The notes under the pieces are model-generated. The model made no database searches and was not told where the DNA came from. It saw only the letters and a program-made list of their open reading frames with translations. Of a DNA stretch of 64,000 bases, positions 26,733-59,345 are shown piece after piece. This stretch comes from Ehretia macrophylla (taxonomy: Eukaryota; Streptophyta; Magnoliopsida; Boraginales; Ehretiaceae): NCBI GenBank assembly GCA_037974665.1, contig CM075775.1, positions 67,054,622-67,118,621 on the forward strand, given 5' to 3'. Made by a program: the position numbers and the translations under genes. The stretch's first letter is position 1. The number at the start of each line of letters is the position of its first letter.

Positions 26733-26777
26733 ATCATGTTGAGGGCACAATTCCTTTATGTGTTAACAGTTCATAGT

Positions 26778-38647: not shown

Positions 38648-38766
38648 GGGGTGCAACACAAGGTCTTCCCAAGGGGTCACCAATCCTAGTACTACTCTCG
38701 CCCAAGCACGCTTAACTTCAGAGTTCTGATGGGATCCAGTGCATTATTGCGGGTATGATCGCATCC
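38648..38766 (-). rRNA. 5S rRNA gene 53 (diverged)
   Basis: 119 nt. Nine differences: C107U, U103A, C95U, G85U, C47U, C29U, C20A, A16C, G3A. A box intact. Confidence 0.92.
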
Positions 38767-39324
38767 GTTATGTTGAGGGCACAATTCCTATATGTGTTAA
38801 TGGTTCACAGTGCCAGCCTAGATAGGTGGCCCATTCAAAAGGCCGAATGTGCTTAACAAAAACCCATCCGCTTCAACAACGCAGCATACTCGCAAGACGG
38901 GATATCGACAAGTTGTAGGGACCTCTGATGTCCAGCGAGTCAGGTTTTCATCCTTTTAACAGCTCACGACGTACGATCCGGGACAGAAAAACAGAGCAAA
39001 AGAAGAAAAGTTGAAAGAAACAGATGAAAACGTTCAATTTTGGGCACCAAAAACGGGTACAGCAAGCAAGCTGGCTGCCCCCTTCATAGACCTCTTAGAG
39101 AGCTTTGCAACGGTATGCTGTGCGCCGCGTAACTCCTTACGGATCAAAAGTTATGGGCACTGGAGCGACGGAGACCTGGTCATAAACCCTACGCCCTCGG
39201 TTTGCGGTCCCGGCCTCTACGTGAAGCGAAGTTGTCTTACCCAAAGTTCTGTGGGATTCGGTAATAGAGATTTGGTGGATAAAGTATCCTGGCAACCCTA
39301 ACCAGGGCAAAAAAAATTGAAAAG

Positions 39325-39443
39325 CGGGTGCAACACAAGGACTTCCTAGGGGGTCACCCATCTTAGTACTACTCTCGCCCAAGCACGCTTAACTTCGGCG
39401 TTCTGATGGGATCCGGTGCATTAGTACTGGTATGATCGCACCC
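39325..39443 (-). rRNA. 5S rRNA gene 54
   Basis: 119 nt. Differences: C119G, C107U, G97A, G81A, U45G, C18U. Upstream heptamer ATATAGA. Confidence 0.94.
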
Positions 39444-40000
39444 GTCATGTTGAGGGCACAATTTCTATATGTGTTAACGGTTCACAGTGCCAGCCTAGAG
39501 AGATGGCCCATTCAAAAGGCCTAATGGGCTTAACGACAACCCATCCGCTTCAACAACGCAGCATCCTCACAAGACGTGATATCGGCACATTGTAGGGACC
39601 TCTGATGTCCCGCGAGTCATGTTGTCGTCCTTTTAACAACTCACGATGTACGATCCGGACTTAAAAAAAGAGAAAAATAAGAAAAGTGGATTGAAACTGA
39701 TGAAAACGTTCGATTTTGCGCTCCAAAAATGGGCATAGCGAGAAATCTAGCTGCCCCCGTCGTAGAGCTCTCAGAGAGCTTTGCAACGGTATGTTGTGCG
39801 CCCCGTAACTCCTTAAGGATAAAAAGATATGGGCATAGGAGCGACGGAGGCCTGGTCACAAACCCTACGCCCTCGGTTTGCCGGCCCGGCCTCTACGTGA
39901 AGCGAAGTTGTCTTGCCCAATGTTCCGTGGAATTCGGAGATAGAGATTTGGTGGATAAAGTATCTTGGCAACCCTAACCAGGGCAAAAAAAATAGAAATT

Positions 40001-40119
40001 GGGGTGCAACACGAGTACTTCCCATGGCGTCACCCATCCTAGTACTACTCTTGCCCAAGCACGCTTAACTTCGGAGTTCTGATGGGATCCGGTGCATTAG
40101 TGCTGGTATGATCGCACCC
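40001..40119 (-). rRNA. 5S rRNA gene 55
   Basis: 119 nt. Differences: C104A, C95A, C92G, G68A. Upstream heptamer ATATATG. Proximal T run is TTT with an interrupted A run behind (AAAATAGAAATT). LTR 2 begins 165 bases upstream of its start. Confidence 0.94.
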
Positions 40120-40278
40120 GTCATGTTGAGGGCATAATTCATATATGTGTTAATGGTTCACAGAGCCAGCCTAGAGAGATGGCCCATTCAAAAGGACCAA
40201 TGGGCTTAACGACAACCCATCCGCTTCAACAACGCAGCATTCTCGCAAGACGTGATATCGACACGTTGTAGGGTCCTC

Positions 40279-40283
40279 TGATG
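40279..40283. repeat. Target site duplication TGATG, LTR 2 left
   Basis: TGATG from the spacer motif CCTCTGATGTCCCG, repeated at 44325-44329. Confidence 0.95.
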
Positions 40284-41317
40284 TGTCACGCCCCAACCCG
40301 TCCTATAAGGTTAGACTTGGGTGTGAACTAAACATTCAAGTCACGTCTCGTACTTAACTGTTTATAAAGATTTAACACTTATCGTTTTTAGTCTAAACTC
40401 CAAAGTTTTTGGAAAAACCGGCAACATAACGGCTGTAATTGAACTCTTTGGTTTGACCTAATTCTCTAAACGCCTCAATTATTCCAATCATTAATCCAAT
40501 TTCATTAAGGACTCCTATTTGTCACCAACCGATTTGCCTACTAGTTTATCTTGAAACTCTCGTTTGGTTAATAAGCCTAACATGATAACTATGTCCCGTT
40601 TATTTTTCAATTTCCTATCTTGCAAGTACCTATTATCCTTTAGTTTGCAAATGAACACCTAAGTGAAATTAGATAGAATTAACTTAGTTGATTGTTCATC
40701 TAGTGGTTTGAATGCCTACGATAACTACTAATTAAGAAAATGAAAGCAAACAACCAAATGAAAGTTCGTCCGGTTATAGATAGTACAATCTCAGAATTAG
40801 ACCCAAATTACAACGGGGTCATTTACATCAATAAACAACGAGCAACATAAAAGAAATAGTCTTCAAGTAGCATAGTTCACAAATAGCCATAATCACGCAA
40901 GGCACACAAGACAGGCAATCACTCCAGGGGTTCATCGTTAGGCACACCGTCCTCGGGTACCTGTACCTGTTCTTCTTCACCTGTGATGAAAAAGAGGGTG
41001 AGTCCTTATGAACTCAGCGAGGGGGAACGAGAAATACGTTTTGAAACTCGTTTTCCGGTTCAATTTATGAAAACTCTTTTTGAGAACATGTCACGTATTA
41101 CAAATAATAAGGTACGCAATTATAAGAAACAAATCGAGTAACGGATACAAAGTAAGGGAACAGAAATGCCAGTCTTTCCTCCCCGAGGTTCTCTAGGAAC
41201 CAAGCGAGAGTACTTATACACATAGTAAAAAGGATACGGTGAGCATTTGCTCTCAATGTCAATTTCGATTCATTTGGTGCGGCCGACTTCAATAATCCAC
41301 TTATCGCTCCCAATTGG

Positions 41318-41485
41318 GTGTACTCCGGATGTACCCCGAAACCTACGACCCAACTCTCCGAGGGTGAAATGCCAAGCGAGAGAGGGAATTGGACCATGGT
41401 AGTCAAGGTAACACCGGCAAGCCCGATGCCGCCCGGCGTGCGTGAAACACTACCATGCCACACTGAAAGGTTGCAACCTTGTATA
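41318..41485 (-). other. Conserved GC-rich LTR block of LTR 2
   Basis: Same block as in LTR 1, again open on the minus strand (137 codons, 41098-41511) with WHGSVSRTPGGIGLAG in frame. Differences from LTR 1 include changed residues right after this motif. Confidence 0.4.
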
Positions 41486-41513
41486 CAATGCCCATTTATG
41501 TCATTTAACATTT

Positions 41514-41880
41514 CACATTAGGAGGTCAACAAAGCAGGTTGCCTCCGAGCAAGTATATGATCACATTTTGACATATTGGCATATAAGGCATTGTAAGAAC
41601 ATATAATCATTTCATATATCCATTTGAAAGCAATTAAACTTTAACGGGCAGCCAAGTAATCATGTTCAAATAAACCATTGAATATCTTTTAACAATTCAC
41701 ATTAGGAGGACAACAAACTAGGTTGCCTCCGAGCAATTTCAAGATCACATATTGCCAAGTAAACGAACGAGGCATGCTTGACATGAAATTTCACTTTGTA
41801 CAACACATAGAGTCATATGAACATTAAACGGGCAGCCATGTAACACATGCAAGTCAAGCCATATAACTCATTTCGAAGTC
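41514..41880. repeat. 184-bp tandem duplication inside LTR 2
   Basis: CACATTAGGAGG.CAACAAA...GGTTGCCTCCGAGCAA...ACGGGCAGCC occurs at 41514 and again 184 bp on at 41698, with clear divergence between copies. LTR 3 has the same pair at the same 184-bp spacing. Confidence 0.8.
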
Positions 41881-43329
41881 CACGTAATCAAGTGATACGA
41901 TTATTCAACATGCAACAACATCTACGTGGTGGTTTCGGATGCAAGAAAAGCCTATTTGTCAACATGCAATGATCAAAATTACATTTAAGCTTATAAGACA
42001 TTTACGGGCAGCCTACTAAGCATATAATTTCCACACAATATCTAAATGATCAACACTTAGCAAGACTACCTAGTCATTAGGGTTTCCGTTTCATGCTTAA
42101 CCATGTGATTAAACCCTAAGTCAACTCAAGTTCATTCACAAGTCATGCATCATTCAATTCAAACATCCTCAAGTACTCAAAACAGTCCACACAACATCCC
42201 AACACCACAATTCCAAGCAATTAGCACCACAAGAGGGGTTACAACAATTTTCCAAGCATATAACTAAGTGAAACCTTTACTGCAATAGGCTGTTTTCCCA
42301 CAATCAATAGGATAATCAAACAATATCAAAATTCAGTGAATAAGATGTAAAATTAAAGCTTAAGAAGTTATATAAACTCAGAAACAAACCTTGCATCAAT
42401 TGGAGTTCAGAATCATTAGTTATGGCCGAAACAGTGAGGTAGCACAAAACTGTCCAGATTTGCACACTTTTCAGAAATTGACGTTTTTGAGGTCCTTAGA
42501 TTCATTTTTAGCTTTGGTCCATTTCTGAAAAAATTTTCCAGAACTGAAAAATCTAGTAGCACACCAATTTTCATGCATTTTGGGCAACATTTACTAAGTA
42601 AAACATGGTTCGCTCCACAAGGTCAGTGCATCTGCCAAAACCTGATTCATTTTCCCAGATTTCCAGATTTGGTCATATTTTAATGATTTTCCATTTTGAG
42701 GACCATAGAGTCAAAATTAGCTTCGGCCTATTTCTGGGAAAAATGTTCAAAACTGTCCAAACTAGTCACCCACCAATTTTCAAGCATTTTCAACATCATT
42801 TTCTTATCTAAACTTACCTCGAACAGACTGGTCAGAGAGCTGTCATCCACTTCGACTTCACCTAGCATCATTTTCAAGCCAAGATCTTGCCATGCATGGT
42901 TGTTTAAGCTTATGAACGACCATATAGCTCAAGTACAGAAGCAAATACACACATTTATGAGCATGCATGTGAAATTTCAAAGAGTTTTCAAAAGCTTTTA
43001 ACCCTCACCTTTGCAATCAACCAAAAGATGCACAAAAACCTTGTTGAGGCTCAAATTTCTTCCTCTTCTTGCTTAGCCGAGTTTCCAACATGGTTTTCTC
43101 TATTTTTCCTATCCTAGTAAGCAATCTCTTAGTACATGCATGTAGTTAGGACTTGAAGAAAAGAAATGGAAGCTTAGTAACTCACCTAGGCCGAAAATGA
43201 AGCTTCAATGCACATGCATGAGTGATTTTTGCATCCTAGCTTGTTCGGTTGAGGTCCTTTGCTTGTGGCTTGCTTGGTTTAGCTATGGTGTGAAGAAGAG
43301 AAGCTATGGAGATGAAGAACTCAGCCAAA

Positions 43330-43410
43330 ACCGAAATGGAGAGAGAAAATGAGAGGGAGAGAGAGAAATGTGAGGAAAGTGAGAGAAATGAGAGAAAAAT
43401 GAGGCTTTTT
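43330..43410 (-). repeat. GA/CT-rich tract of LTR 2
   Basis: Plus strand GAGAGAGAAAATGAGAGG and following GAGA-type sequence, the counterpart of 9425-9495. The plus-strand open frame at 43306-43581 is a low-complexity by-product of it. Confidence 0.6.
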
Positions 43411-43884
43411 GCAATTTTTGAGCATGTGGTCAGCCTTGGGCTTCCAAATCTGAATTTTTGTGTCTTCAAGGTGGAATTTGAAATGTTAGCATGGGCCATG
43501 AGTGGTTTGGTCGAAAATGAGAGGAAATTGAGGTGGTTTTGGGCAATTTTTTATGCATTGATAAGTGTTTTTGTGTCATGACTTGTCTAGAATTATTTTG
43601 AATTAAACATGCATGCAAAAATCTGATTTTGTGTCATCTTTTGAATTGTTTTAACATGTGTGTAAGAGAATGTTGGGTATTTAGGGATTTTAGGTAGAAT
43701 AGAATATAGGGTATGTTTAGAGGTTGGTGAGATTTTGTCTTGTAGTGAGTTCAAAATATAATATTTAGGTGTTAGTGGATTTTGTAGAGATTTGAATTAG
43801 GATTATAATAATAGTTAGTGGATTGTGTAGGATTATTTTATTGTCTTGTGCTTTGTGTAGGATTCTTTCTTGATCAACGTGGTG

Positions 43885-44310
43885 GCACGGATTCCTAGGT
43901 CTAGGGCACGAATTACGAGGTAAGACACGAACTTCAAGACTAATGCACGTACTTCAAGACTAATGCACAGATTTCAATGCAAATGCACGCAATCCCTAGA
44001 TAAATGTACATAAACCAACACAAGACACGTAATTCAAGACACGACTCTTAAAACTAGGGTAAAGCACGCAGGTCAAGGTTAATGCACACGAAACGAAGAG
44101 ACACACGCAAATCAAGGTCTCGCATGTAAATTAAGGTCATGGCACATTTATCTAGGTATCACACGTATCTTGAGGATTAGGGCACACAATTCTAGGTTAA
44201 GGCACGAATAACGAGGCATGCACGAAAATCAAGATAGGGCACGTAATCCTAGGTCGGTCATATAATTTTAGGTCTAAGGCGCGCAAATCGAGGTAGGACA
44301 CGTTATTCGG
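43885..44310 (-). repeat. Degenerate ~22-bp ACGTG repeats of LTR 2
   Basis: Counterpart of 9975-10380: a run of GGCACG-, GCACGTA- and ACACGAA-type short repeats up to the LTR end. A local perfect duplication, ACTTCAAGACTAATGCAC, is visible at 43930-43966. Confidence 0.7.
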
Positions 44311-44324
44311 GGTCGGGCCTCACA

Positions 44325-44329
44325 TGATG
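44325..44329. repeat. Target site duplication TGATG, LTR 2 right
   Basis: Matches 40279-40283; the spacer resumes as TGATGTCCCGCGA. Confidence 0.95.
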
Positions 44330-44723
44330 TCCCGCGACTCAGGTTGCCGTCCTTTTAACAGCTCACGACGTACGATCCGGGATGGAAAAACAGAGGAAAA
44401 GTAGAAAAGTGGACTAAAACTGATGAAAACGTTCGATTTTGGGCACCAAACACCAGCACAGCGGGCAAGCTGGCTGCCCCCTTCGTAGAGTTCTCAGAGA
44501 GCTTTGCAACGGTATGCTGTGCGCCGTGTAACTCCTTACGAATCAAAAGTTATGGGCACCGGAGCGACGGAGACCTGATCACAAATACTACGCTCACGGT
44601 TTGTGGGCCCGGCCTCTACGTGAAGCGAAGTTGTCTTTCCCAATGTTCCGTGGGATTCGGTAATAGAGATTTGGTGGATAAAGTATCTTGGCAACCCTAA
44701 CTAGGGCAAAAAAAATTGAAAAG

Positions 44724-44841
44724 GGGGTGCAACACAAGGACTTCCCAGGGGTCACCCATCCTAGTACTACTCTCACCCAAGCACGCTTAACTTCGGAGTT
44801 CTGATGGGATCTGGTGCATTAGTGCTGGTATGATCGCACCC
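44724..44841 (-). rRNA. 5S rRNA gene 56 (118 nt)
   Basis: One C missing in the 91-95 run of the C box, the same lesion as gene 11. Also C107U, C67U, G30A. Terminator runs intact. Confidence 0.93.
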
Positions 44842-45399
44842 GTCATGTTGAGGGCATAATTCCTATATGTGTTAACGGTTCACAGTGCCAGCCTAGAGGG
44901 ATGGCCCATTCAAAAGGCCCAACGGGCTTAACGACAACCCATCCACTTCAACAACAAAGCATCCTCGCAAGACGTGATATCGACACGTTGTAGGGCCCTC
45001 TTATGTCTAGCGAGTCATGTTGTCGTCCTTTTAACAGCTCACGACGTACAATCCGGGACCGAAAAACAGAGCAAAAGAAGAAAAGTCGTCTGAAACTATT
45101 GAAAATGTTCGATTTTGGGCTCCAAAAATGGGCACAGCGAGCAAGCTGGCTGCCCCCGTCATAGAGCTCTCAGAGAGCTTTGCAACGGTATGCTGTGCGC
45201 CGTGTAACTCCTGACGGATCAAAAGTTGTGGACACCGGAGCGACGGAGACCTGGTCACAAACACTACGCCCTCGGTTTGCGGGCCCGGCCTCTACGTGAA
45301 GCGAAGGTGTCTTGCCCAATGTTCCGTGGGATTCGGTAATAGAGATTTGGTTGATAAAGTACCTTGGCAACCCTAACCGGGGCAAAAAAAATTGAAAAT

Positions 45400-45518
45400 G
45401 GGGTGCAGCACGAGGACTTCCCAGGGGGTCACCCATCCTAGTACTACTCTCGCCCAAGCACACTTAACTTCAGAGTTCTGATGGGATCCGGTGCATTAGT
45501 AGTGGTATGATCGCACCT
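45400..45518 (-). rRNA. 5S rRNA gene 57
   Basis: 119 nt. Differences: U111C, C57U (A box CpG), C47U, C18U, G17C, G1A. C18U with G17C recurs in gene 71. Upstream heptamer ATATGGG. Confidence 0.94.
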
Positions 45519-46076
45519 GTCATGTTGAGGGCACAATTCCCATATGTGTTAACGGTTCACAGTCCCAGCTTAGAGAAATGGCCCATTCAAAATGCCAAAT
45601 GGGCTTAACGACAACCCATCCGCTTCAACAACGCAGCATCCTCACAAGACGTGATATCGACACGTTGTAGGGCCCTCTGATGTCCAGCGAGTCAGGTTGT
45701 CGTACTTTTAACAACTCACGACGTACGATCCGGGATGAAAAAATAGAGCAAAAGGAGAAAAGTGGACTGAAATTGATGAAAACGTTCGATTTTGGGCGCC
45801 AAAAAGGGGCATAGCAAACAAGTTGGCTGCCCCCTTCGTAGAGCTGTCAGAGAACTTTGCAACGGTATGCTGTGCGCCTCGTAACTCCTTCCGGATCAAA
45901 AGTTATGGGCACTGGAGCAACGGAGACCTGGTCAAAAACCCTTCGCCCTCGGTTTACGGGCCCGGGCTCTACGTGAAGCGAAGTTTTCTTGACTAATGCT
46001 CCGTGGGATTCGGTAATAGAGATTTTATGGATAAAGTATCTTGGCAACACTAACCAGGGCAAAAAAAATTGAAAAG

Positions 46077-46195
46077 GGGGTGCAACACGAGGACTTCCTA
46101 GGGGGTCACCTATCCTAGTACTACCCTCGCCCAAGCACCTTTAACATCGGAGTTCTGATGGGATCCGGTGCATTAGTGCTGGTATGATCACACCC
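46077..46195 (-). rRNA. 5S rRNA gene 58
   Basis: 119 nt. Differences: G97A, G85A (C box), A71G, C57G and G56A (A box), A49U, C6U. Upstream heptamer AAATAGG. Probably weak or silent. Confidence 0.92.
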
Positions 46196-46753
46196 GTCAT
46201 GTTGAGGGCACAATTCCTATTTGTGTTAATGGTTCATAGTGCCAGCCTAGAGAGATGGCCCATTCAAAAGTCTCAATGGGCTTAACGACAACCCATCCGC
46301 TTCTACAACGCAGCGTCCTCGCAAGACGTGATATAGACACGTTGTAGGGCCCTCTGATGTTCCGCGAGTCAGGTTGTCGTCCTTTTAACAGCTCACAACG
46401 TACGATCCGAGACGGAAAAAAATATTAAAAGGAGAAAAGTGGACTGAAACTGATGAAAACATTCGAATTTGTGCTCCAAAAACGGGCACAAAGAGCAAGC
46501 TGGCTACCCCATTCGTAGATTTCTCAGAGAGATTTGCAACGGCATGCTGTGCGCCGCATAACTCCATACGGATCAAAAGTTATGGGCACCGAAGCGGTGG
46601 AGACCTGGTCAAAAACCCTACGCCCCCGGTTTGAGGGCCCGGCCTCTACGTGAAGCGAAGTTGTCTTGCCAAATGTTCCGTGGGATTCGGTAATAGTGAT
46701 TTGTTGGATAAAGTATCTTGGCAACCCCAACCAGGGCAAAAAAAATTAAAAAT

Positions 46754-46871
46754 GGGGTGCAGCATGAGGACTTCCCAAGGGTCACCCATCCTCGTACTAC
46801 TCTCGCCCAAGCACGCTTAACTTCGAAGTTCTGATGGGATCTGGTGCATTAGTACTGGTATGATCGAAACC
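46754..46871 (-). rRNA. 5S rRNA gene 59 (118 nt, diverged)
   Basis: One base lost in the C box run plus U111C, G108A, C95U, U79G, C46U, G30A, C18U, G5U, G3U. Upstream heptamer ATATCGG. Likely inactive. Confidence 0.9.
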
Positions 46872-47428
46872 GTCATGTTGAGGGCACAATTCCGATATGT
46901 GTTAACGGTTCACAGTGCCAGCCTAGAGAGATGGCCCATTCAAAAGGCCCAATGGGCTTAACGACAACCCATCCGCTTCAACAACGCAGCATCCTCGCAA
47001 GACGTGATGTCGACATGTTGTAGGGCCCTCTGATGTCCACCAAGTCATTTTGTCGTCCTTTTAACAGCTCACGACGTACAATCCGGGATGAAAAAACAGA
47101 GCGAAAGAATAAAAGTCGACTGAAGCTGATGAAAATGATCGATTTTGGGCTCCAAAAACGGGTACAGCGTGCAAGCTGGCTGCCCCCTTCGTAGAGCTCT
47201 TAGAGAGCTTTGCAATGTTATGCTGTGAGCCGCTTAACTCCTTACTGAGCAAAAGTTATTGGCACCGGAGCGACGGAGACCTGGTCACAAACCCTACGCC
47301 CTCGGTTTCTAGGCCCGGCCTCTACGTGAAGCGAAGTTGTCTTGCCCAATTATCCGTGGGATTCACTAATAGAGATTTGGTGGATAAAGTATCTTGGCAA
47401 CCCTAACCAAGGCAAAAAAATTGAAAAG

Positions 47429-47547
47429 GGGGTGCAACACAAGTACTTCCAAGGGGGTCACCCATCCTAGTACTACTCTCGCGCAAGCACGCTTACCTTC
47501 GGAGTTCCGATGGGATCCGGTGCATTAGTGCTGGTATGATCGCACCC
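47429..47547 (-). rRNA. 5S rRNA gene 60
   Basis: 119 nt. Differences: C107U, C104A, G97U, G65C, U52G (A box), A40G. Confidence 0.94.
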
Positions 47548-48074
47548 GTCATGTTGAGGGCATAATTCCTATATGTGTTAATGGTTCGCACGGCCAGCCT
47601 AGAGAGATAGCCCATTCAAAAGGCCCTATGGGCTTAACGACAACCCATCCGCTTTAACAACACCGCATCCTCGCAAGACGTGATATCGACAAGTTGTAGG
47701 GCCCTCTGATGTCCCGTGAGTCAGGTTGTCATCCTTTTAACAGCTCACGACGTACGATCCGGGAAGGAAAAACAGAGCAAAAGAAGAAAAGTGGACTGAA
47801 ACTGATGAAAACATTCGATTTTGGGCTCCAAAAATGGGCACAGCGAGCAAGCTGGCTGCCCCGATCGTAGAGTTCTCAGAGAGCTTTGCAACGGTATGTT
47901 TTATGCCACGTAACTCCTTACGGATCAAAAGTTATGGGCACCGGAGTGACGGAGACCTGGTCACAAACCCTACGCCCTCGGTTTGCCGGCCCGGCCTCTA
48001 CGTGAAGCGAAGTTGTCTTGCTCAATGTTCCGTGGGATACGGTAATAGAGATTTGGTGGATAAAGTATCTTGGC

Positions 48075-48082
48075 AACCCTAA
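48075..48082. promoter_or_regulatory. Telobox-like AACCCTAA in the 3' flank, example
   Basis: AACCCTAA lies about 30 bp beyond the RNA 3' end in almost every unit. It matches the core of the plant telo box, but position and tandem copying make chance conservation possible. No function is claimed. Confidence 0.35.
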
Positions 48083-48089
48083 CCAGGGC

Positions 48090-48104
48090 AAAAAAAATTG
48101 AAAA
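48090..48104 (-). terminator. RNA polymerase III terminator, subfamily B example
   Basis: TTTT (48101-48104) one base beyond the gene 61 RNA end, then T8 (48090-48097) as back-up on the minus strand. Confidence 0.85.
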
Positions 48105-48105
48105 G

Positions 48106-48224
48106 GGGGTGCAACACGAGGACTTCCCAGGGGGTCACCCATCCTAGTACTACGCTCACCCAAGCACGCTTAACTACCGAGTTCTGATGGGATCCGGTGC
48201 ATTAGTGCTGGTATGATTGCATCT
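48106..48224 (-). rRNA. 5S rRNA gene 61
   Basis: 119 nt. Differences: A71C, C67U (intermediate element), A49U, C47G, G7A, G3A, G1A. The C box is consensus. Confidence 0.94.
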
Positions 48225-48244
48225 GTCATGTTGAGGGTACAAGT

Positions 48245-48251
48245 CCTATAT
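48245..48251 (-). promoter_or_regulatory. TATA-like element at -27, subfamily B example
   Basis: Reads ATATAGG on the minus strand at -27 to -21 of gene 61, a closer TATA match than the ATAAAGG of subfamily A. Variants: ATATAGA (54), ATATATG (55), ATATGGG (57), AAATAGG (58, 73), ATATCGG (59), ATATTGG (68), ATGTAGG (70). Confidence 0.7.
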
Positions 48252-48782
48252 GTGTTAATGGTTCATAGTGCTAGCCTAGAGAGATGGCCCATCCAAAAGG
48301 CACAATGTGTTTAACGACAACCCATCCGCTTCAACAACGCAACATCCTCACAAGACGTGATATCGACATGTTGTAGGGCCCTCTAATGTCCCGCGAGTCA
48401 GATTGTCGTCCTTTTAACAGCTCACGACATACGATCCGGGACGGAAAAATAGTGCAAAAGAAGAAAAGTGGAATGAAACTGATGAAAACGTTCGATTTTG
48501 GACTTGAAAAAAGGGTACAGCTAGCAAGCTGGCTGCCCCCTTCGTAGAGCTCTCAGAGAGCTTTGCAACGGTATGCTTTGAGCCGCGTAACTCCTTACGG
48601 ATCAAAAGTTATGGGCACCGGAGCGACAGAGACCTGGTAACAAACACTACGCCCTCTGTTTGCGGCCCCAGCCTCTACGTGAAGCGAAGTTGTCTTGCCC
48701 AATGTTCTGTGGGACACAAAAATAAAGATTTGGTGGATAGAGTATCTTGGCAACCCTAACCAGGGCAAAAAAAATTGAAAAG

Positions 48783-48901
48783 GGGAGGCAGCACGAGGAC
48801 TTCCTAGGGGGTCACCCATCCTAGTACTACTCTCGCCCAAGCACGCTTAACTTCGGAGTTCTGATGGGATCCGGTGCATTAGTGCAAGTATGATCGCACC
48901 C
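48783..48901 (-). rRNA. 5S rRNA gene 62
   Basis: 119 nt. Differences: C116U, A115C, U111C, G97A, A16U, C15U. A box and intermediate element intact. Confidence 0.94.
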
Positions 48902-49459
48902 GTAAAGTTGAGGGCACAATTCCTATATGTGTTAACGGTTCACAGTGCCAGCCTAGAGAGATGGCCCATTCAAAAGGCCCAATGGGCTTAACGACAACCC
49001 ATCAGCTTCAACAACGCAGCATCCTTGCAATACGTGATATCGACACGTTGTAGGGCCCTCTAATGTCCCGAGAGTCATGTTGTCGTCCTTTTAACAACTC
49101 ACGACGTACGATCCGGGACGAAAAAATAGAGCAAAAGAAGAAAAGTGGAATGAAACTGATGAAAACGTTCAATTTTGGGCTCCAAAAATGGGTACAGCGA
49201 GCAATCTGGCTGCCCCCGTCGTAGAGCTCTACGAGAGCTTTGCAACGGTATGCTGTGCGCCGCGTAACTCCTTACGAATCAAAAGTTTTGGGCACCGGAG
49301 CGACGGAGGCCAGGTCACAAACCCTACGCCCTCGGTTTGTCGGCCCGGCCTCTACGCGAAGCGAAGTTGTCTTGGCCAATGTTCCGTGGGATTCGGTAAA
49401 AGAGATTTGGTGGATAAAGTATCTTGGCAACCCTAACCAGGGCAAAAAAAATTGAAAAG

Positions 49460-49578
49460 GGGGTGCAACACGAGGACTTCCCAGGGGGTCACCCATCCTA
49501 GTACTACTCTCACCCAAACACGCTTAACTTCGGAGTTCTGGTGGGATCCTGTGCATTAGTGCTGGTATTATCACACCC
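49460..49578 (-). rRNA. 5S rRNA gene 63
   Basis: 119 nt. Differences: C67U, C61U (A box), U38C, C29A, C10A, C6U. C box consensus. Confidence 0.94.
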
Positions 49579-50135
49579 GTGATGTTGAGGGCACAATTCC
49601 TATATGTGTTAATGGTTCACAGAGCAAGCCTAGAGAGATGGCCCATTCAATAGGCCCAATGGGCTTAACGACAACACATCCGCTTCAACAACGCAGCATC
49701 CTCGCAAGACGAGATATTGACACGATGTAGGGCCCTCTGATGTCCCGAGAGTCATGTTGTCATCCATTTAACAGCTCACGACATGCGATCCGGGACGAAA
49801 AAATAGAGCAAAAGAAGAAAAGTGGACTGAAATTGATGACAACGTTCGTTTTTTAGCTCCAAAAAGGGGCACAGCGGGCAAGCTAGCTGCGCCCTTCGTA
49901 GTGCTTTCAGAGTGCTTTGCAAAGGTATGCTGTGTACTGCGTAACTCATTACGGATCAAAAGTTATGGGCACCGAAGTGACGGAGACCTAGTCACAAACC
50001 CTACGCCCTCGGTTTGCTGGCCCAGCCTCTACGTGAAGCGAAGTTGTCTAGCCCAATGTTCAGTGGGATTCGGTAACAGAGATTTGTTGAATAAAATATC
50101 TTGGCAACCCTGACCAGGGCAAAAAAAATTGAAAA

Positions 50136-50254
50136 GGGGTGCGGCACGAGGACTTCCCAGGGGGTCACCCATCATAGTACTACTCTCGCCCAAGCACGTT
50201 TAACTTCGGAGTTCTGATGGGATCCGGTGCATTAGTGTTGGTATGATTGGACCC
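50136..50254 (-). rRNA. 5S rRNA gene 64
   Basis: 119 nt. Differences: U112C, U111C, G81U (C box), G56A (A box), G17A, G7A, G5C. Confidence 0.93.
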
Positions 50255-50812
50255 GTCATGTTGAGGGCACAATTCCTATATGGGTTAACGGTTCACAGTG
50301 CTAGCCTAGAGAGATGGCCCATTCAAAAGGCCCAATGGGCTTAACGATAACCCATCCGCTTCAACAACGCAGCATCTTCGCAAGACGTTATATCGACACT
50401 TTGTAGGGCCCTCTGATGTCCCGCGAGTCATGTTGTAGTCCTTTTAACAGCTCACGACGTACGATCCGGGATCGAAAAATAGGGCAAAAGTAGAAAAGTT
50501 AACTGAAACAGATGAAAACGTTCGATTTTGGGCTCTAAAAATGGGCAAAGCGAGCAATCTGGCTACCCCCGTCGTAGAGCTCTCAGAGAGCTTTGCAACG
50601 GTATGTTGTGCACCGCGTAACTCCTTACGGATCAAAAGTTATGGGCACTAGAGCGACAGTGGCCTCGTCACAAACCATACGCCCTCGGTTTGTGGGCCCA
50701 GCCTCTACGTGAAGCGAAGTTGTCTTGCCCAATGTTCCGTGGGATTCGGTAATAGAGATTTGGTGGATATAGTATCTTGGCAACCCTAACCAGGGCAAAA
50801 AAAATTGAAAAG

Positions 50813-50931
50813 AGGTTGTAGCACGAGGACTTCCCAGGGGTTCAGCCATCCTAGTACTACTCTCGCCCAAGCACGCTTAACTTCGGAGTTCTGATAGGAT
50901 CCGGTGCATTAGTGCTGCTCTGATTGCACCC
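50813..50931 (-). rRNA. 5S rRNA gene 65 (degenerate)
   Basis: 119 nt, ten differences: C119U, C116A, G113A, U111C, C91A, G87C, C36U, C14G, U12G, G7A. Its C box (plus GGTTCAGCC) is shared only with gene 66, and its 5' end (C14G, U12G, G7A) only with gene 69. Confidence 0.9.
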
Positions 50932-51488
50932 ATCTTGTTGAGGGCACAATTCCTATATGTGTTAACGGTTCATAGTGCCAGCCTAGGGATATATCCCATT
51001 CAAAAGGCCCAATGGGATTAACGACAACCCATCCGTTTTAACAACGCAGCATCCTCACAAGACGTGATATCGACACGTTGTAGGGCCCTCTGATATCCCG
51101 CGAGTCAGGTTGTCATCCTTTTAACAGCTCACGACGTACGATCCGTGACGGAAAAATAGAGCAAAAGAAGAAAAGTGGCCTGAAATTGATGAAAACGTAC
51201 GATTTTGGGCTTCAAAAATGGGCACAGCGGGCAAGCTGCTGCCCCCGTCGTAGAGCTCTCAGGGAGCTTTGCAACGGTATGCTGTACGCCGCGTAACTCC
51301 TTACGAATCAAAAGTTATGGGCACCGGAGCGACGGAAACCTGGTCACAAACCCTACGCCCTCGGTTTTTTGGCCCGGCCTCTGAGTTAAACGAAGTCATC
51401 TTGCCCAATGTTCTGTGGGATTCGGTAATAGAGATTTGGTGGATAAATTGTCTTGACAACCCTAACCAGGGCAAAAAAAATTGAAAAG

Positions 51489-51607
51489 GAGATGCAGCAC
51501 GAGTACTTCCCAGGGGTTCAGCCATCCTAGTACTACTCTCGCCCAAGCATGCTTAACTTCGGAGTTCTGATGGGATCTGGTGCATTAGTGCTAGTATGAT
51601 CGCACCC
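51489..51607 (-). rRNA. 5S rRNA gene 66 (degenerate)
   Basis: 119 nt, nine differences: C118U, C116U, U111C, C104A, C91A, G87C (C box pair shared with gene 65), G58A, G30A, C15U. Its upstream spacer has the largest deletion in the window. Confidence 0.9.
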
Positions 51608-51634
51608 GTGAAGTTGAGGGCACAATTCCTATAT

Positions 51635-51648
51635 ATGTTAACAGCTCA
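51635..51648. other. 159-bp spacer deletion between GTTAAC/TTTTAAC repeats
   Basis: ATATATGTTAAC runs straight into AGCTCACGACG. In an intact spacer TTAAC occurs both after the promoter heptamer and before AGCTCACG, so the loss joins two short direct repeats. The gene 66 to 67 period is 518 bp. The TATA-like heptamer is kept. Confidence 0.88.
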
Positions 51649-52006
51649 CGACGTACGATCCGGGATGAAAAAACATAGCAAAAGAAGAAAAGTGGACTGA
51701 AACTGATGAAAACGTTTGATTTTGGGCTATAAAAATGGGTACAACGAGCAAGCATGCTGCCCCCATCGTAGAGCTCTCAGAGAGCTTTGCAACGGTATGC
51801 TGTGCGCCGCGTAACTCCCTACGGATCAAAAGTTATGGGCACTGAAGCGACGGAGACCTGGTCACAAACCCTACGCCCTCGGTTTGCGGGCCCAGCCTCT
51901 ACGTGAAGTGAAGTTGTCTTGCCCAATGTTCTGTGGGATTCGGTAATAGAGATTTGGTGGATAAAGTACCTTGGCAACTCTAACCAGGGCAAAAAAAATT
52001 GAAAAG

Positions 52007-52125
52007 GGGGTGCAACACGAGGACTTCCCACGAGGTCACCCATCCTAGTACTACTCTCGCCCAAGCACGCTTAACTTCGGAGTTCTGATGGGATCCGGTG
52101 CATTAGTGCTGGTATGATCGAACCT
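52007..52125 (-). rRNA. 5S rRNA gene 67
   Basis: 119 nt. Differences: C95G, C93U (C box), G5U, G1A. A box intact. Confidence 0.95.
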
Positions 52126-52682
52126 GTCATGTTGAGGGCACAATTCCTATATGTGTTAACGATTCCCAGTGCCAGCCGAGAGAGTTGGCCCATTCAAAAG
52201 GCCCAATGGGCTTAACGGCAACCCATCCGCTTCAACAACGTAGCCTCCTCGCAAGATGTGATATCGACACATTGTTGGTCCCTCTGATGTCCCGTGAGTC
52301 AGGTCTTCGTCCTTTTAATAGCTCACAACGTACGATCCGGTACGGAAAAATAGAGCGAAAGAAGAAAAGTGGCATGAAATTGTTCAAAACGTTGATTTTG
52401 GGCTCCAAAAACGAGCATAGCGAGCAAGCTAGCTACCCACGTCGTAGAGCTCTCAGAGAGCTTTGCAAAGGTATGCTGTGCTCCGCGTAACTCCCTACGG
52501 ATCAAAAGTTATGGGCACCGGAGCGACGGAGACCTGGTCACAAACCCTACGCCCTCGGTTTGCTGGCCCGACCTCTACGTGAAGCGAAGTTGTCTTGCCC
52601 AATGTTCCGTGGGATTCAGTAATAGAGATTTGGTGGATAAAGTATCTTGGCAACCCTAACTAGGGCAAAAAAAATTGAAAAG

Positions 52683-52801
52683 GGGGTGCAACTCGAGGAC
52701 TTCCCAGTGGGTCACCCATCCTAGTACTACTCTCGCCCAAGCACGCTTAACTTCTGAGTTCTGATGGGATCCGTTGCATTAGTGCTGGTATGATCGCATC
52801 C
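52683..52801 (-). rRNA. 5S rRNA gene 68
   Basis: 119 nt. Differences: U109A, C94A (C box), C47A, C28A, G3A. Upstream heptamer ATATTGG. Confidence 0.94.
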
Positions 52802-53358
52802 GTCATGTTGAGGGCACAATTCCAATATGTGTTAATGGTTCACAGTGCCAGCCTAGAGAGATGGCCCATTCAAAAGGCCCAATGGGCTTAACGACAACCC
52901 ATCCGCTTCAACAACGCAGCATCCTCGCAAGACGTGATATCGACACGTTGTAGGGCCCTCTGATGTCCCGCGAGTCAGGTTGTCATCCTTTTAACAGCTC
53001 ACGACATACGATCCGGGACGGAAAAACGGAGCAAAAGAAGAAAAGTGGACTGAAACTGAAGAAAATGTTCGATTTTGGGCTCCAAAAATGGGCACACATA
53101 GCAAGCTGGCTGCCAGCTTCGTAGAGCTCTCCGAGAGCTTTGCACCGGTATGTCGTGCGCCGCGTAACTCCTTGCGGATCAAAAGTTATGGGCACCGGAG
53201 CGACGGAGACCTGGTCACAAACCTTACGCTCTCGGTTTGCTGGCCCGGTCTCTAGGTGAAGCGAAGTTGTCTTGCCCAATGTTCCGTGGGATTCGGTAAT
53301 AGAGATTTGGTGGATAAAGTATCTTGGCAACCCTAACCAGGGCAAAAAAATTGAAAAG

Positions 53359-53477
53359 GGGGTGCAACACGAGGACTTCACAAGGGGTCACCCATCCTAG
53401 TACTACTCTTGCCCAAGCACGCTTAACTTCGGAGTTATGATGGGATCCGGTGCATTAGTGCTGCTCTGATTGCACCC
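53359..53477 (-). rRNA. 5S rRNA gene 69
   Basis: 119 nt. Differences: G98U, C95U, G68A, G41U, C14G, U12G, G7A. The last three are the block shared with gene 65, four units away. Confidence 0.93.
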
Positions 53478-54037
53478 GTCATGTTGCGGGCATAATTCCT
53501 ATATGTGTTAACGGTTCACAGTGCCAGCCTTGAGATATGGCCCATTCAAAAGGCCCAATGGGCTTAACGACAACCCATCCGCTTCAACAACGCAGCATCC
53601 TCGCAAGATGTGATATCGACACGTTGTAGGGCCCTCTGATGTCCCGCGAGTCAGGTTGTCATCATTTTAACAGCTCACGACGTACGATCCGGGACCCAAA
53701 AAAAGAACAAAATTAGAAAAGTGGCCTGAAATTGATGAAATCGTTAAATTTTGTTCTTCAAAAATGGGCATAGCGAGCAAGCTAGCTGCCCCCATCGTAG
53801 AGCTCTCAGAGAGCTTTGCAACGGTATGCTGTGCGCCGCGTAACTCCTTACGGATCAAAAGTTATGGGCACCGGAGCGATGGAGACCTGGTCACAAACCC
53901 TACGTCCTCGGTTTGCTGGCCCGTCCTCTACGTGAAACGAAGTTGTCTTGGCCAATGTTCCGTGGGATTCGGTAATAGAGATTTGGTGGATAAAGTATCT
54001 TGGCAACCCTAACCAGGGCAAAAAAAAAATTGAAAAT

Positions 54038-54156
54038 GGAGTACAACACGAGGTCTTCCTAGGGGGTCACCCATCCTAGTACTACTCTCGCCCAAGCACG
54101 CTTAACTTCGGTGTTCTCATGGGATCTGGTGCATTTGTGTTGGTATGATGGCATCC
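54038..54156 (-). rRNA. 5S rRNA gene 70 (most diverged full-length copy)
   Basis: 119 nt, eleven differences: C117U, C114U, U103A, G97A, U45A, C39G, G30A, U21A, G17A, G7C, G3A. The A box is still consensus. Upstream heptamer is ATGTAGG. LTR 3 starts 162 bases upstream of its start. Confidence 0.9.
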
Positions 54157-54312
54157 GTCATGTTGAGGGCACAATTCCTACATTGTTAATGGTTCACAGT
54201 GCCAGGCTAGAGAGATGGCCCATTCAAAAGGCCCAATGGGCTTAATGACAACCCATCCGCTTCAACAACACAGCATCCTCGCAAGACGTGATATCGACAC
54301 GTTGTAGGGCCC

Positions 54313-54317
54313 TCTGA
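54313..54317. repeat. Target site duplication TCTGA, LTR 3 left
   Basis: TCTGA from CCCTCTGATGTCCC, repeated at 58150-58154. Confidence 0.95.
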
Positions 54318-54336
54318 TGTGAGGCCCGACCCCGAA

Positions 54337-54775
54337 TAACGTGTGTTACCTTGATTTGCGTGCCTTAGACCCCTAATTATATGACCGACCTTGGATTACA
54401 TGTCCTGTCTTGGTTTTCGTGCATACCTCGTCATACGTGCCTTGACCTAGAATAGTGTGCCCTAATCCCCGACTCACGTGCGGTACCTAGAAATACGTGC
54501 CCTGATCTCGATGTACGTGCGTTACCTCATTTTGTGTGCCCTAACCTTGAACTGCGTGCCTTAACCTACGTTTAAGATTTGTACCTCAATTTACGTGTAT
54601 TACATTGTATTTCGTGTCTTGCATTGGTTTACGTGCATTCACGTAGGATTGCATGCATTAGTCTTGAAGTCCGTGTCTTACCTCATAGTTCGTGTCTACC
54701 TCGTGATTCGTGCCCGGTATTGATTTCTGTGTGTGTCTCGTAGTGCGTGCCCTAGACTTTGGAAAGCGTGCCCGC
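54337..54775 (+). repeat. Degenerate ~22-bp ACGTG repeats of LTR 3
   Basis: About 23 short diverged repeats around TACGTGCCTTGACCT, roughly 22 bp apart, filling the first 450 bp of the LTR (U3 if orientation is right). ACGTG is the core of plant G-box and ABRE sites; regulatory use is inference. Confidence 0.7.
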
Positions 54776-54813
54776 ACGCTAATCAATAAAGAATCCTACA
54801 CAAATCACTAGAC

Positions 54814-54822
54814 TATAAAATA
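54814..54822 (+). promoter_or_regulatory. Candidate LTR TATA box TATAAAATA
   Basis: TATAAAATA follows the repeat region and precedes the CT-rich tract by about 270 bp. The match is by sequence only. Several other AT-rich stretches nearby could serve, and the start site is unknown. Confidence 0.3.
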
Positions 54823-55086
54823 ATCCTACAAACACCACTAACTATTATTATAATCCTAATTCAAATCTCTACAAAATCCACTAACACCTAAATATTATAT
54901 TTTAAACTCACTACAAGACAAAATCTCACAAACCTCTAAACATATCCTATATTCTATTCTACCTAAAATCCCTAAATACCCAACATTCTCTTACACATGT
55001 TAAAACTATTCAAAAGATGACACAAATCTGAATTTTTGCATGCCCAAGGCCAACATATGCATCAACTTTTGCAAAAGCCTCATTTT

Positions 55087-55146
55087 TCTCTCATTTCTCT
55101 CACTTTCCTCACATTTTCTCTCTCTCCCTCTCACTCTCTCTCTCCA
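55087..55146 (+). repeat. CT-rich tract of LTR 3
   Basis: TCTCTCTCCCTCTCACTCTC and similar, counterpart of the GA-rich tracts in LTR 1 and 2. Confidence 0.65.
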
Positions 55147-56776
55147 TTTCGGTTTTGGCTGAGTTCTCTCCACCTCTTAGATCATCTTCATCATCCTATG
55201 GTGCATCAAGACAAACCACAAGCAAAGAAACTCACCCAAGCAAGCTAGGATGCAAGAAACACACATGCAAGCATTTTTAGTCACCATTTTCGGCCTTGGT
55301 GAGTTTTTAAGCTTCCATTTCTTTTCTTCTTGTTCTAACCTTATGCATGTGCTAAGAGATTGATCACTAAGCTAGGAAAAATAGAGAAAAGCTAGTTGGA
55401 ATCTCGGCTAAGCAAGAAGAAGAAGAGATTTGAGCTTCAACAAGGTTTTTGAGCATTTTTTGGGTTGATTGCAAAGGTGAGGGCTAAAACCTTTTGAAAA
55501 CTCTTCAAAAATCCACATGCATGCTAATAAATGTGTGTATTTGCTTCTGTACTTGAGCTATATGGTCGTTCATAAGCTTAAACAACCGTGCATGGCAAGA
55601 TCTTGGCTTGAAAATGATGCTAGGTGAAGTCGAAATTGTTGACAGCTCTCTGACCAGTCTGTTTTAGGTAAGTTTAACTAGGAAAATGATGTTAAAAATG
55701 CATGAAAATTGGTAAGTGACTAGTTTGGACAGTTTTGAACATTTTTCCCAGAAATAGGCCGAAGCTAATTTTGAGTCTAAGGTCCTCAAAATGGCAAATC
55801 TTTAAAATGTGACCAAATCTGGAAATCTGGAAAAATGAAGCAGGTTTTGGCAGATGCAATGACCTTGTGGAACGAACCATATTTGACTTAGTAAATGTTG
55901 TCCAAAATTCATGATATTTGGTGTGCTGCTATATTTTTCAGTTCTAGACAATTTTGTCAGAAATGGACCAAGGCTAAAACTGACCCTAAGGACCTCAAAA
56001 ACGTAAATTTCTGAAAACTGTGTAAATCTGGACAGTTTTGTGCTCTTTCACTGTTTCGGCTATATCTAATGATCCCGAACTCAAATTGAGCAAGGTTTAT
56101 TTCTGATTTTAGTTAACTTCTTAAGCTTTAATTTGACATCTTATTCACCGAATTTGGAGATTGTTTGCTTATCCGATTGATTGTGAGAAGACAGCCTATT
56201 GCAGTAAGGGTTTCACTTAATGTTGTGCTTAGAAAATTGTTGTGACTCCTCTTGTTGAATTAAATGCTTGGGATTATAGCTACGGGATGTTGTGTGGACT
56301 GTTTTGAATGTTTGAGGATGTTGAATTAAATGATGCATGGTTTGAGATTGACTTTGAGTTGGGTTGAGGCTCAAATTGCACGAATATACATGACATGGAA
56401 ACCCTAATGACTAGGTAGTTTTGCTAAGTATTGATCAATTGGACATTGTGTGGGAATTATATGCTTAGTGGGCTGCCCGTAAATGTCTTATAACTTCAAA
56501 TGTGATTTTGACCATTGCATGTTGACAAATAAGCTTTTCTTGCACCCGAACCCATGATTGATGTCATTGCATGTTGAATAATCGTATCACTTGATTACGT
56601 GGACTTCGAAATGAGTTATATGGCTTGACTTGGATGTGTTACATGGCTGCCCGTTTAATGTTCATATGACTCTATGTGTTCTACAAGTGAAATTTCATGT
56701 CAAGCATGCCTCGTTCGTTTACTTGGCAATATGTGATCTTGAAATTGCTCGGAGGCAACCTACTTTGTTGTCCTCT

Positions 56777-56990
56777 TAATGTGAATTGTTAAAAGATATT
56801 CAATGGTTTATTTGAACATGATTACTTGGCTGTCCGTTAAAGTTTAATTGCTTTCAAATGGATATATGAAATGATTATATGTTCTTACAATGCCTTATAT
56901 GCCAATATGTCAAAATGTGATCATATACTTGCTCGGAGGCAACCTACTTTGTTGACCTCCTAATGTGAAATGTTAAATGACATAAATGTG
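56777..56990. repeat. 184-bp tandem duplication inside LTR 3
   Basis: TAATGTGAA preceded by GCTCGGAGGCAACCTACTTTG occurs at 56777 and again 184 bp on at 56961, matching the pair in LTR 2. The shared duplication groups LTR 2 and 3 together against LTR 1. Confidence 0.8.
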
Positions 56991-57004
56991 CATTGCATAT
57001 GAGG

Positions 57005-57180
57005 TTGCAACCTTTCATTGTGGCATGGTAGCGTTTCACGAACGCCGGGCGGCATAGGGCTTGCCGGTGCTCCCGTGACTACCATGGTCCAACTCCCTCT
57101 CTCGCTTGGCATTCCACCCATGGAGAGTTGGGTCGTAGGTTTTGGGGTACATCCGGAGTACACCCAATTGGGAGCGATAT
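57005..57180 (+). other. Conserved GC-rich LTR block of LTR 3
   Basis: Counterpart of 7590-7800. The 82-codon plus frame (57018-57266) again includes WHGSVSRTPGGIGLAG and then diverges. Treated as conserved LTR sequence, not a gene. Confidence 0.4.
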
Positions 57181-58149
57181 GGGGATTATTGAAGCCGGGC
57201 GCAACAATTGTATCGAAATTGAAATTGAGAGCAACCGCTCACCGTATCCTTTTACTGTGTGTATAAGTACTCTCGCTTGGTTCCTAGAGAACCTCGGGAA
57301 GGAAAGACTGGTATTTCTGTTCCTTTACTTGATTTTACTGTTATATTCATGTTTGAAAAAGGTATTTTCATAAATTGAACCGAAAAATGAGTTTCAAAAC
57401 GTATTTCTCGTTCCCCCTCACTGAGTTCATAAGGACTTACCCTCTTTTTATCATAGGTGAAGAAGAACAGGTACAGGTACCCGAGGACAACGTGCCTATC
57501 GATGATTCCTTGGAGTGATTGCCTGTCCCTACGTGCTTTTGTGCCTTGCCTGAAAGTGGTTGCTATATGGATGTTGTGTTTGATTGCAACTATTCATTTT
57601 ATTGATGTAAATGACCCCGTTGTAATTTGGGTCTAATTCTGGGATTGTACTATCTATAACCGGACGAACTTTTATTTGGTTGTTTGCTTTCGTTTTCTTC
57701 ATTAGTAGTTATCGTAGGCATTCAAACCACTAGATGAGCAATCAACTAAGTTAATTCTATCTAATTTCACTTAGGTGCTCATTTGCAAACTAAAGGATAA
57801 TAGGTACTTGCATGATAGGAAATTGACAAATAAACGAGACATAGTTATCATGTTAGGCTTATTAACCAAACGAGACTTTCAAGATAAACTAGTAGGCAAA
57901 TCGGTTGGTGACAAATAGGAGTCCTTAATGGAATTGGATTAATGATTGGAATAATTGAGGCGTTTAGAGAATTAGGTCAAACCAAAGAGCCCAATTACAG
58001 CTGTTATGCTGCCGGTTTGCCGAAAAATTTTGGAGTTTAGGCCAAAACGTGAAGTGTTAAATCTTTATAAACAGTTAAGTATGTGATATTACCTGAATGT
58101 TTAGATCACACCCTATTCTAACCTTCATAGGTCGGGTTGGGGCGTGACA

Positions 58150-58154
58150 TCTGA
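58150..58154. repeat. Target site duplication TCTGA, LTR 3 right
   Basis: Matches 54313-54317; the spacer resumes as TCTGATGTCCCGCGAG. Confidence 0.95.
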
Positions 58155-58550
58155 TGTCCCGCGAGTCAGGTTGTCGTTCTTTTAACAGCTCACGACGTAC
58201 GATCCGGGACAGAAAAACATAGCAAAAGAAGAAAAGTGGAATGAAACTGTTGAAAACGTTTGATTTTGGGATCCAAAAATGGGTACAGTGAGCAAGCTTG
58301 CTGCCCCCTTCGCAGAGCTCTCAGAGAGCTTTGCAACGGTATGCTGTTCGACGCGTAACTCCTTACGGATCAAAAGTTATGGGCACCGGAGCGATGGAGA
58401 CCTGGTCACAAACCCTACGCCCTCGGTTTACGGGCCCGGCCTCTACGTGAAGCGAAGTTGTCTGGCCCAATGTTCCGTGGGATTCAGTAATAGAGATTTG
58501 GTGGATAAAGTATCTTGGCAACCCTATCCAGGGCAAAAGAAATTGAAAAG

Positions 58551-58669
58551 GGGGTGCAACACAAGGACTTCCCAGGGGGTCACCCATCCTAGTACTACTC
58601 TCGCCCAAGCATGCTTAACTTCGGAGTTCTGATGGGATCCGGTGCATTAGTAGTGGTATGATCGCACTC
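58551..58669 (-). rRNA. 5S rRNA gene 71
   Basis: 119 nt. Differences: C107U, G58A (A box CpG), C18U, G17C, G2A. C box intact. Confidence 0.95.
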
Positions 58670-59226
58670 ATCATGTTGAGGGCACAATTCCTATATGTGT
58701 TAATGGTTCACAGTGCCAGCCTAGAGAGATGGCCCATTCAAAAGGCCCAATGGGCTTAATGACAACCCATCCGCTTCAACAACGCAGCATCCTCGCAAGA
58801 CGTGATATCGACACGTTATAGGGCCCTCTGATGTCTAATGAGTCAGGTTGTCGTCCTTTTAATAGCTCACGACGTACGATCCGGGAAGGAAAAACAGAGC
58901 AAAAGAAGAAAAGTGGACTGAAACTGATGAAAACGTTTGATTTTAGGCTCCAAAAAAGGCAAAGCAAGCAAGCTGGCTGCCCCCTTCGTAGAGCTCTCAA
59001 AGAGCTTTGCAACAGTATGCTGTGCGCCATGTAACTCCTTACGGATCAAAAGTTAAGGGCACCGGAGCGACGGAGACCTGGTCACAAACCCTACGCCCTC
59101 GGTTTGCTGGCCCGGCCTCTACGTGAAGCGAAGTTGTCTTGCCCAATGTTCCGTGGGATTCGGTAATAGAGATTTGGTTGATAAAGTATCTTGGCAACCC
59201 TAACAAGGGCAAAAAAAATTGAAAAG

Positions 59227-59345
59227 GGGGTGCAGCACGAGGACTTCCCGTGGGGTCACCCATCCGCGTACTACTCTCACCCAAGCACGCTTAACTTCGG
59301 AGTTCTGATGGGATCCGGTGCATTAGTGCTGGTACGATCGCACCC
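59227..59345 (-). rRNA. 5S rRNA gene 72
   Basis: 119 nt. Differences: U111C, U96C, C95A, A80C (C box), U79G, C67U, A11G. Nearly identical to gene 74. The spacer upstream is 8 bp short (CTCTAAGCG for CTCTACGTGAAGCG). Confidence 0.94.

Follow-up and report, generated by a model that had tools for sequence, protein, structure and literature searches.

Why should two long terminal repeats (LTRs) of one retrotransposon family lie 2 bp apart, in opposite orientations, in the spacer of a tandemly repeated 5S gene? The question is raised by a 64-kb stretch of Ehretia macrophylla DNA (hereafter the window, meaning the whole stretch analysed), which covers positions 67,054,622–67,118,621 of contig 12 in a genome of 1.58 Gb and 20 contigs. 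A search with the Rfam model placed 78 5S genes in the window, all on the minus strand. The consensus of 62 full-length units is 677 bp long and is numbered along the plus strand of the window, with the 5S gene at 1–119, reversed. Three LTRs, designated LTR1, LTR2, and LTR3, interrupt the array. In our assessment, the recurrence of insertions at the same bases is likely to be explained by a target-DNA preference of the integrase, perhaps expressed on nucleosomes, and not by a link to RNA polymerase III (Pol III).

LTR1, LTR2, and LTR3 are solo LTRs of one family. All three inserts have TG...CA ends and 5-bp duplications, no internal LTR pair was found within any of them, and no 5S sequence was matched inside them at the Rfam threshold. 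The mutual identity of their main matching segments is 74–88%. A preliminary description of this DNA had taken LTR2 and LTR3 for independent insertions 2 bp apart and in opposite orientations, which was confirmed by their duplications, TGATG at unit positions 279–283 and TCTGA at 277–281, and by their opposite labels (Table 1). The distance of 162–165 bp to 5S genes 55 and 70 given there was approximately right, the sites being measured at about 158–164 bp from the gene start on its upstream side. Three inserts placed at random would include a pair within 2 bp in 2.2% of cases, so the window by itself is weak evidence for a preferred site.

Raw insertion counts per position are misleading because the arrays were copied along with LTR1, LTR2, and LTR3; such counts were discarded as evidence. 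Twenty loci were fetched around relatives of the 3' part of LTR3 (20 of 40 BLAST matches), and 15 of them had at least one LTR end at the LTR3 site in the LTR3 orientation; loci with this site and orientation were found on contigs 2, 4, 5, 8, 10, and 12. The nearest LTR3 copy was 99.6% identical to that of the window in the LTR and 99.7% and 99.85% identical in the two 2-kb 5S flanks. The LTR1 site was common to 28 junctions (counting that of the window) on contigs 2, 3, 4, 5, 8, 9, 10, and 12, and these represent one copied event. The LTR2 site was common to five junctions, again counting that of the window, and 11 of the 12 junctions at the LTR3 site fell into one cluster. Judging from these shared sites and identities, arrays with old insertions were copied between chromosomes. 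In the sample, the close relatives of LTR1 and of LTR3 are for the most part that single old insertion, transported with its array.

Junctions were counted as one event when they shared the site (within 2 bp) and the orientation and when flank and LTR were each at least 90% identical. In total, 110 junctions were clustered, 96 from 178 small pieces and 14 from the window and the 10-kb loci. The resulting 57 clusters became 56 events after two hand corrections (37 with one orientation label and 19 with the other), located either in the 5S unit or within a satellite of about 340 bp that shares the 5S spacer. The event of piece L028 was placed by hand at 471 with the minus label, L019 was joined to the 277 event, and 410–412 is written as 412. 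The 82 pieces outside the event list were interior ends, other flanks, or pieces with mapping slack of more than 5 bases (e.g., L053 and L129). Among all 178 pieces, the flank was the internal end of the element in 33.

The events recurred at the level of single bases. A plus-label site lay within 2 bp of 9 of the 13 minus-label sites, against 2.6 expected (p = 0.00025, 4000 uniform draws). When the LTR2/LTR3 pair that raised the question was left out of the first data set, 5 of 10 coincided (p = 0.004). Opposite-orientation pairs recurred at 44/45, 88, 96/97, 268/269, 412, 471, 483, and 595/596, and these coincidences did not arise by copying because a copied insertion retains its orientation with respect to its flank. 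Nine plus-label and two minus-label events were located at 410–412, i.e., 11 hits on one spot, while 471 received one plus and four minus events and 483 one plus and three minus events. The flanks of the plus junctions at 410–412 had a mean identity of 0.81, compared with 0.95 at the copied LTR1 site, and these junctions are read as separate insertions; six of the plus junctions (four events) were drawn from a list at 98–99% LTR identity to one query. Over all events, 79 pairs lay within 2 bp, against 12.2 expected, a number reached in 0 of 5000 draws.

A weak sequence motif derived outside the 5S repeats predicted part of the pattern of sites within them. A weight matrix from 20 non-5S junctions, mirrored, separated the first 27 5S sites with an area under the curve (AUC) of 0.77 (p = 1e-6). 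In a test set beforehand on the next 60 junctions, which supplied 12 new 5S sites, the AUC was 0.786 (p = 3e-4). The pieces used for the larger matrix were the 45 of 178 whose 200-bp flank was neither 5S, satellite, nor element interior, plus L124, less 12 repeats or interior ends. The resulting 34-site matrix gave an AUC of 0.745 in place and 0.41–0.62 when the sites were moved by 1–6 bp; without the three doubtful junctions L081, L124, and L149 (31 sites), the AUC was 0.77. The motif consists of a purine at −3 and any base but A at −2, plus the mirror image, around the 5-bp cut. One side of this mirrored preference around the duplication was seen at unrelated sites, and the mirrored matrix predicted the 5S sites. 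Both motif features were present at 9 of 14 new non-5S sites, against a background of 37% (p = 0.034), and at 23 of all 34 non-5S sites. A four-base rule, whose positions were chosen after the first sites had been seen, held at 21 of 39 sites compared with 106 of the 677 unit positions. Strict complement symmetry of single target sites showed no excess (p = 0.22) and was dropped as a target rule.

The preferred target proposed in the preliminary description is thus supported by base-level recurrence and by a motif that predicts new sites. Its further suggestion that the preference lies upstream of Pol III genes was not supported. The 43 position-and-orientation combinations, in which 642, 643, and 644 count as three sites that were merged in event clustering, were flat over the unit (Kolmogorov–Smirnov (KS) p = 0.84); on this sample and at coarse scale, this is the uniform spread that the preliminary description had itself named as evidence against its proposal. 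Ten of the 43 sites lay in the 5S gene, against 7.6 expected, and one started at the first base of the gene. Clustering of the Pol III type, at a set distance upstream of the 5S gene, was not found among the 43 sampled sites. One direction accounted for 30 of the 43 (p = 0.014, post hoc).

The satellite consists of head-to-tail copies of unit positions 295–633, with an additional T between them and without a 5S gene, as seen in the flanks of 12 junctions. Its junction, GGATTAGGTTGTCG, occurred in the majority of these 12 pieces; L118, L095, L089, L113, and L143 are among those that carry the satellite. A 24-base junction as first guessed was absent, the actual one having one more T. The satellite length of 340 bp is about half of 677. 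Six of the plus-label events at 410–412 were in the satellite and three in 5S-type flanks, and 412, 471, and 483 were used in both gene-bearing units and the gene-less satellite. Some junctions at hot sites were not assignable to either repeat, including all three minus-label ones viewed at 412. Among the results that speak against a causal role of Pol III, this use of the satellite carries the most weight; it also argues against a dependence on Pol III or TFIIIB/TFIIIC.

An integrase drawn to 5S genes by the Pol III machinery and inserting at a fixed upstream distance, as known from Ty1 and Ty3 (PMC5911963, in the part drawn on here), could account for the sites at 268, 269, 277, 279, and 296, which lie about 149–181 bp upstream of the gene, and for 4 of the 43 sites falling in 269–299, against 2.0 expected. 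However, the flat distribution and the hits in the gene itself do not agree with a fixed distance, the hottest bases are elsewhere (about 290–370 bp upstream) and are also used in the satellite without a 5S gene, and the 45 flanks outside 5S, satellite, and element show that the family inserts outside these repeats too. Targeting by Pol III is accordingly regarded as highly improbable. Where the preliminary description had invoked chromatin or a bound factor, the chromatin part is possible in view of the 10.15-bp period described below; the Pol III factor was not borne out. It is also quite unlikely that two of three inserts landed 2 bp apart by chance and that array copying then inflated the site. 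The chance of 2.2% is not negligible for three inserts, and the 28 junctions of the LTR1 event and the 11 clustered junctions at the LTR3 site show such inflation; yet opposite-orientation pairs are not mutual copies and recur at eight places, and a motif derived from sites outside the repeats has predictive power for new ones.

Chromatin is more difficult to separate from the motif. Across 37 distinct positions, a periodicity with its peak at 10.15 bp was seen (uniform draws, p = 0.001; motif-weighted draws, p = 0.0008), which suggests insertion on nucleosomal DNA. Periods of nucleosome length were not found, with z values of 1.1–2.0 at 169 bp and 0.2 at 338 bp. Under an explanation by chromatin alone, nucleosomes in strict positions on the 677-bp unit (4 × 169) and on the satellite (2 × 170) would expose the same bases each time, and the motif would be secondary. 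The 10.15-bp period (p = 0.0008–0.02 depending on the null) fits this explanation, as does 412, the most-hit site, whose motif percentile is only 59; however, the missing 169- and 338-bp signals and the best fit at shift 0 of a motif from unrelated sites make it rather doubtful as the whole cause. A related proposal is that nucleosomes are held in such strict positions on the 5S unit and the satellite that their rotational setting is read by the family, with insertions on one helical face along the 677 bp and pile-ups on a few bases. This proposal is put forward tentatively and, on balance, is somewhat doubtful.

Several results also weigh against an integrase preference as the explanation. 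The junction sample consisted of the best BLAST hits to six LTR queries and was not random, and the matrix was based on 34 sites. With the base composition of the unit itself as background, the 31-site matrix gave an AUC of 0.72. The motif percentile was 94 at 277, but 24 at 279, 59 at 412, 66 at 483, and 37 at 643, and the matrix at its best-fitting strength simulated only 3.0 of the 9 opposite-orientation coincidences. When each position and orientation was counted once (41), the pairs within 2 bp in any orientation numbered 10, against 6.1 expected (p = 0.09). Moreover, merging sites less than 4 bp apart weakened the 10.15-bp period to p = 0.02.

With target-DNA preference as the favoured explanation, the following course of events can be proposed. 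Two separate insertions of one LTR-retrotransposon family have left the solo LTRs LTR2 and LTR3 as remnants. The family inserts across the whole 5S unit and elsewhere in the genome, and its integration machinery would favour a weak mirrored pattern at the 5-bp cut, so that a good site could be used in either direction. The integrase itself would read this motif. In addition, a few sites may be made much hotter than the motif predicts by another component, probably either the rotational placement of the DNA on nucleosomes, with its 10.15-bp spacing, or DNA shape; in the former case, nucleosomes would be the cause of the period. Finally, copying of the 5S arrays, both within a chromosome and from one to another, took LTR-bearing units along and multiplied the LTR1, LTR2, and LTR3 events.

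The family could be characterized further from a full-length relative on contig 4 (L014/L026), in which two LTRs of 98.1% identity enclose an interior of about 2.9 kb. In this interior, two signals are present as reverse complements: TGGTATCAGAGC, resembling a primer-binding site (PBS), beside the TGTCACG end, and a purine tract beside the opposite end. Because of this placement, the true LTR orientation is judged to be TGTGAGG...CGTGACA, the reverse of the working label "plus"; LTR2 and LTR3 stay mutually opposite after the correction. A PBS of the TGGTATCAGAGC type is taken by us to match the initiator tRNA, and the element presumably resembles the Tekay clade of Ty3/gypsy chromoviruses. No open reading frame of more than 69 codons was present in the interior of this single full-length copy, and a Tekay-clade gag-pol with an integrase chromodomain was not found in it. 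The family is therefore probably a non-autonomous LTR retrotransposon with LTRs of about 3.8–4.0 kb, as judged from one full-length copy, and an autonomous partner would supply its enzymes.

Comparison with known systems, which draws on excerpts of the cited papers, shows both likeness and difference. Across 12 genomes, plant LTR retrotransposons were described as having a weak palindromic target preference and as being associated with predicted nucleosome occupancy (Jedlicka et al. 2019, PMC6911290). The present family shares with them the 5-bp duplications and the mirrored base preference just outside the cut, and the nucleosomal reading of the 10.15-bp period is in line with that association. 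However, a statistic over 12 genomes was reported there, whereas here a single family has inserted at identical bases of a tandem repeat as many as 11 times and in both orientations. Yeast Ty1 and Ty3 and Dictyostelium TRE5 insert beside Pol III genes, and Ty1 favours nucleosomal faces (PMC5911963). As in those systems, 5S genes can serve as targets, but here there is no fixed distance, the gene body is also hit, and insertion does not require the gene. Beon1, a Galadriel-clade chromovirus interspersed in beet 18S rDNA (PMC3605345), is likewise an LTR element spread inside a ribosomal gene array; it differs in its 18S array and its clade, and base-level recurrence is not described for it in the excerpted text. 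Cassandra also links 5S rDNA with a non-autonomous LTR element (PMC10853983, PMC7215508), but the LTR of Cassandra carries 5S sequence, whereas here the LTR sits within 5S units. The extreme amplification of 5S rDNA in pikes, with more than 20,000 copies (PMC5437419), resembles the massive multi-chromosome amplification here, where about 117,000 matches to a motif adjoining the 5S gene were counted. A literature search by terms returned, for those terms, no report of insertions recurring in 5S units in this manner.

Knowledge of where plant retrotransposons insert usually comes from averaging over many dissimilar sites. When one target is instead presented in about 10^5 tandem copies, preference for individual bases can be read directly and apart from gene context, and effects of chromatin on it can be tested. 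In addition, the LTRs tag whole 5S array segments and thereby reveal their movement between chromosomes. If the strict-nucleosome proposal is true, these repeats would amount to a saturation screen, performed by nature, of an integrase acting on nucleosomes in a fixed array, and the frozen solo LTRs would date and trace the movement of 5S arrays between chromosomes.

Table 1. Coordinates of the 5S array and of the LTR inserts in the window
Feature	Position	Strand	Basis and remarks
5S array, 78 genes, 677-bp unit, broken by LTR1, LTR2, and LTR3	1..64000	-	5S gene search and unit consensus
LTR1 with duplications	6564..10399	-	Solo LTR at 6569-10394; TAACT on both sides = consensus unit 483-487
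5S gene 55, in the unit carrying LTR2	40001..40119	-	5S gene search
LTR2 left target-site duplication TGATG	40279..40283		Sequence; consensus unit 279-283
LTR2, solo LTR, 4041 bp	40284..44324	-	Strand is the true LTR orientation, from the PBS and polypurine tract of the full-length copy
LTR2 right target-site duplication TGATG	44325..44329		Sequence
5S gene 70, in the unit carrying LTR3	54038..54156	-	5S gene search
LTR3 left target-site duplication TCTGA	54313..54317		Consensus unit 277-281
LTR3, solo LTR, 3832 bp, opposite to LTR2	54318..58149	+	Sequence
LTR3 right target-site duplication TCTGA	58150..58154		Sequence

The extent of the 5S repeats was estimated from a 21-base motif adjoining the 5S gene, which had 116,947 genome matches at no more than one mismatch (53,982 forward and 62,965 reverse). 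Because this motif recovers 47 matches per 78 genes in the window, the genome total would be near 190,000 5S units, roughly 5–8% of the genome, if the window is typical. Forty-seven scored 5S matches were spread over 11 contigs. Within the window, the 5S genes at 50813–50931, 46754–46871, and 33966–34057 had low scores (67–79 bits, against 90–112 for most others under the Rfam model) and are probably pseudogenes.

Larger copies of the window were also observed. The window segment recurs inverted on contig 12 at 69.29–69.34 Mb, and the end of this contig, about 66.98–69.43 Mb, resembles a giant inverted repeat with its centre at about 68.2014 Mb. The LTR2 and LTR3 copies on contig 12 have the identical coordinate sum of 136,402,875, LTR1 is off by 606 bp, and 5S and further LTR matches pair likewise about the centre; the symmetry may be real or an assembly artefact. 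The three-LTR segment is also present on contig 10 (9.69–9.75 Mb) and contig 2 (88.14–88.18 Mb), with 99–100% identity over the LTR query parts and partly different spacing. In the contig 2 copy, the 5S flanks of LTR3 agree at 99.1% on one side and 92.9% on the other, as if an array exchange had ended there. At L019 on contig 10, two LTR3-type LTRs lie about 5.2 kb apart, approximately one LTR plus two 5S units, in an arrangement like a higher-order repeat. On contig 8, three LTR matches at 12.17–12.20 Mb are spaced 10,775 bp each, which suggests tandem amplification of a larger unit.

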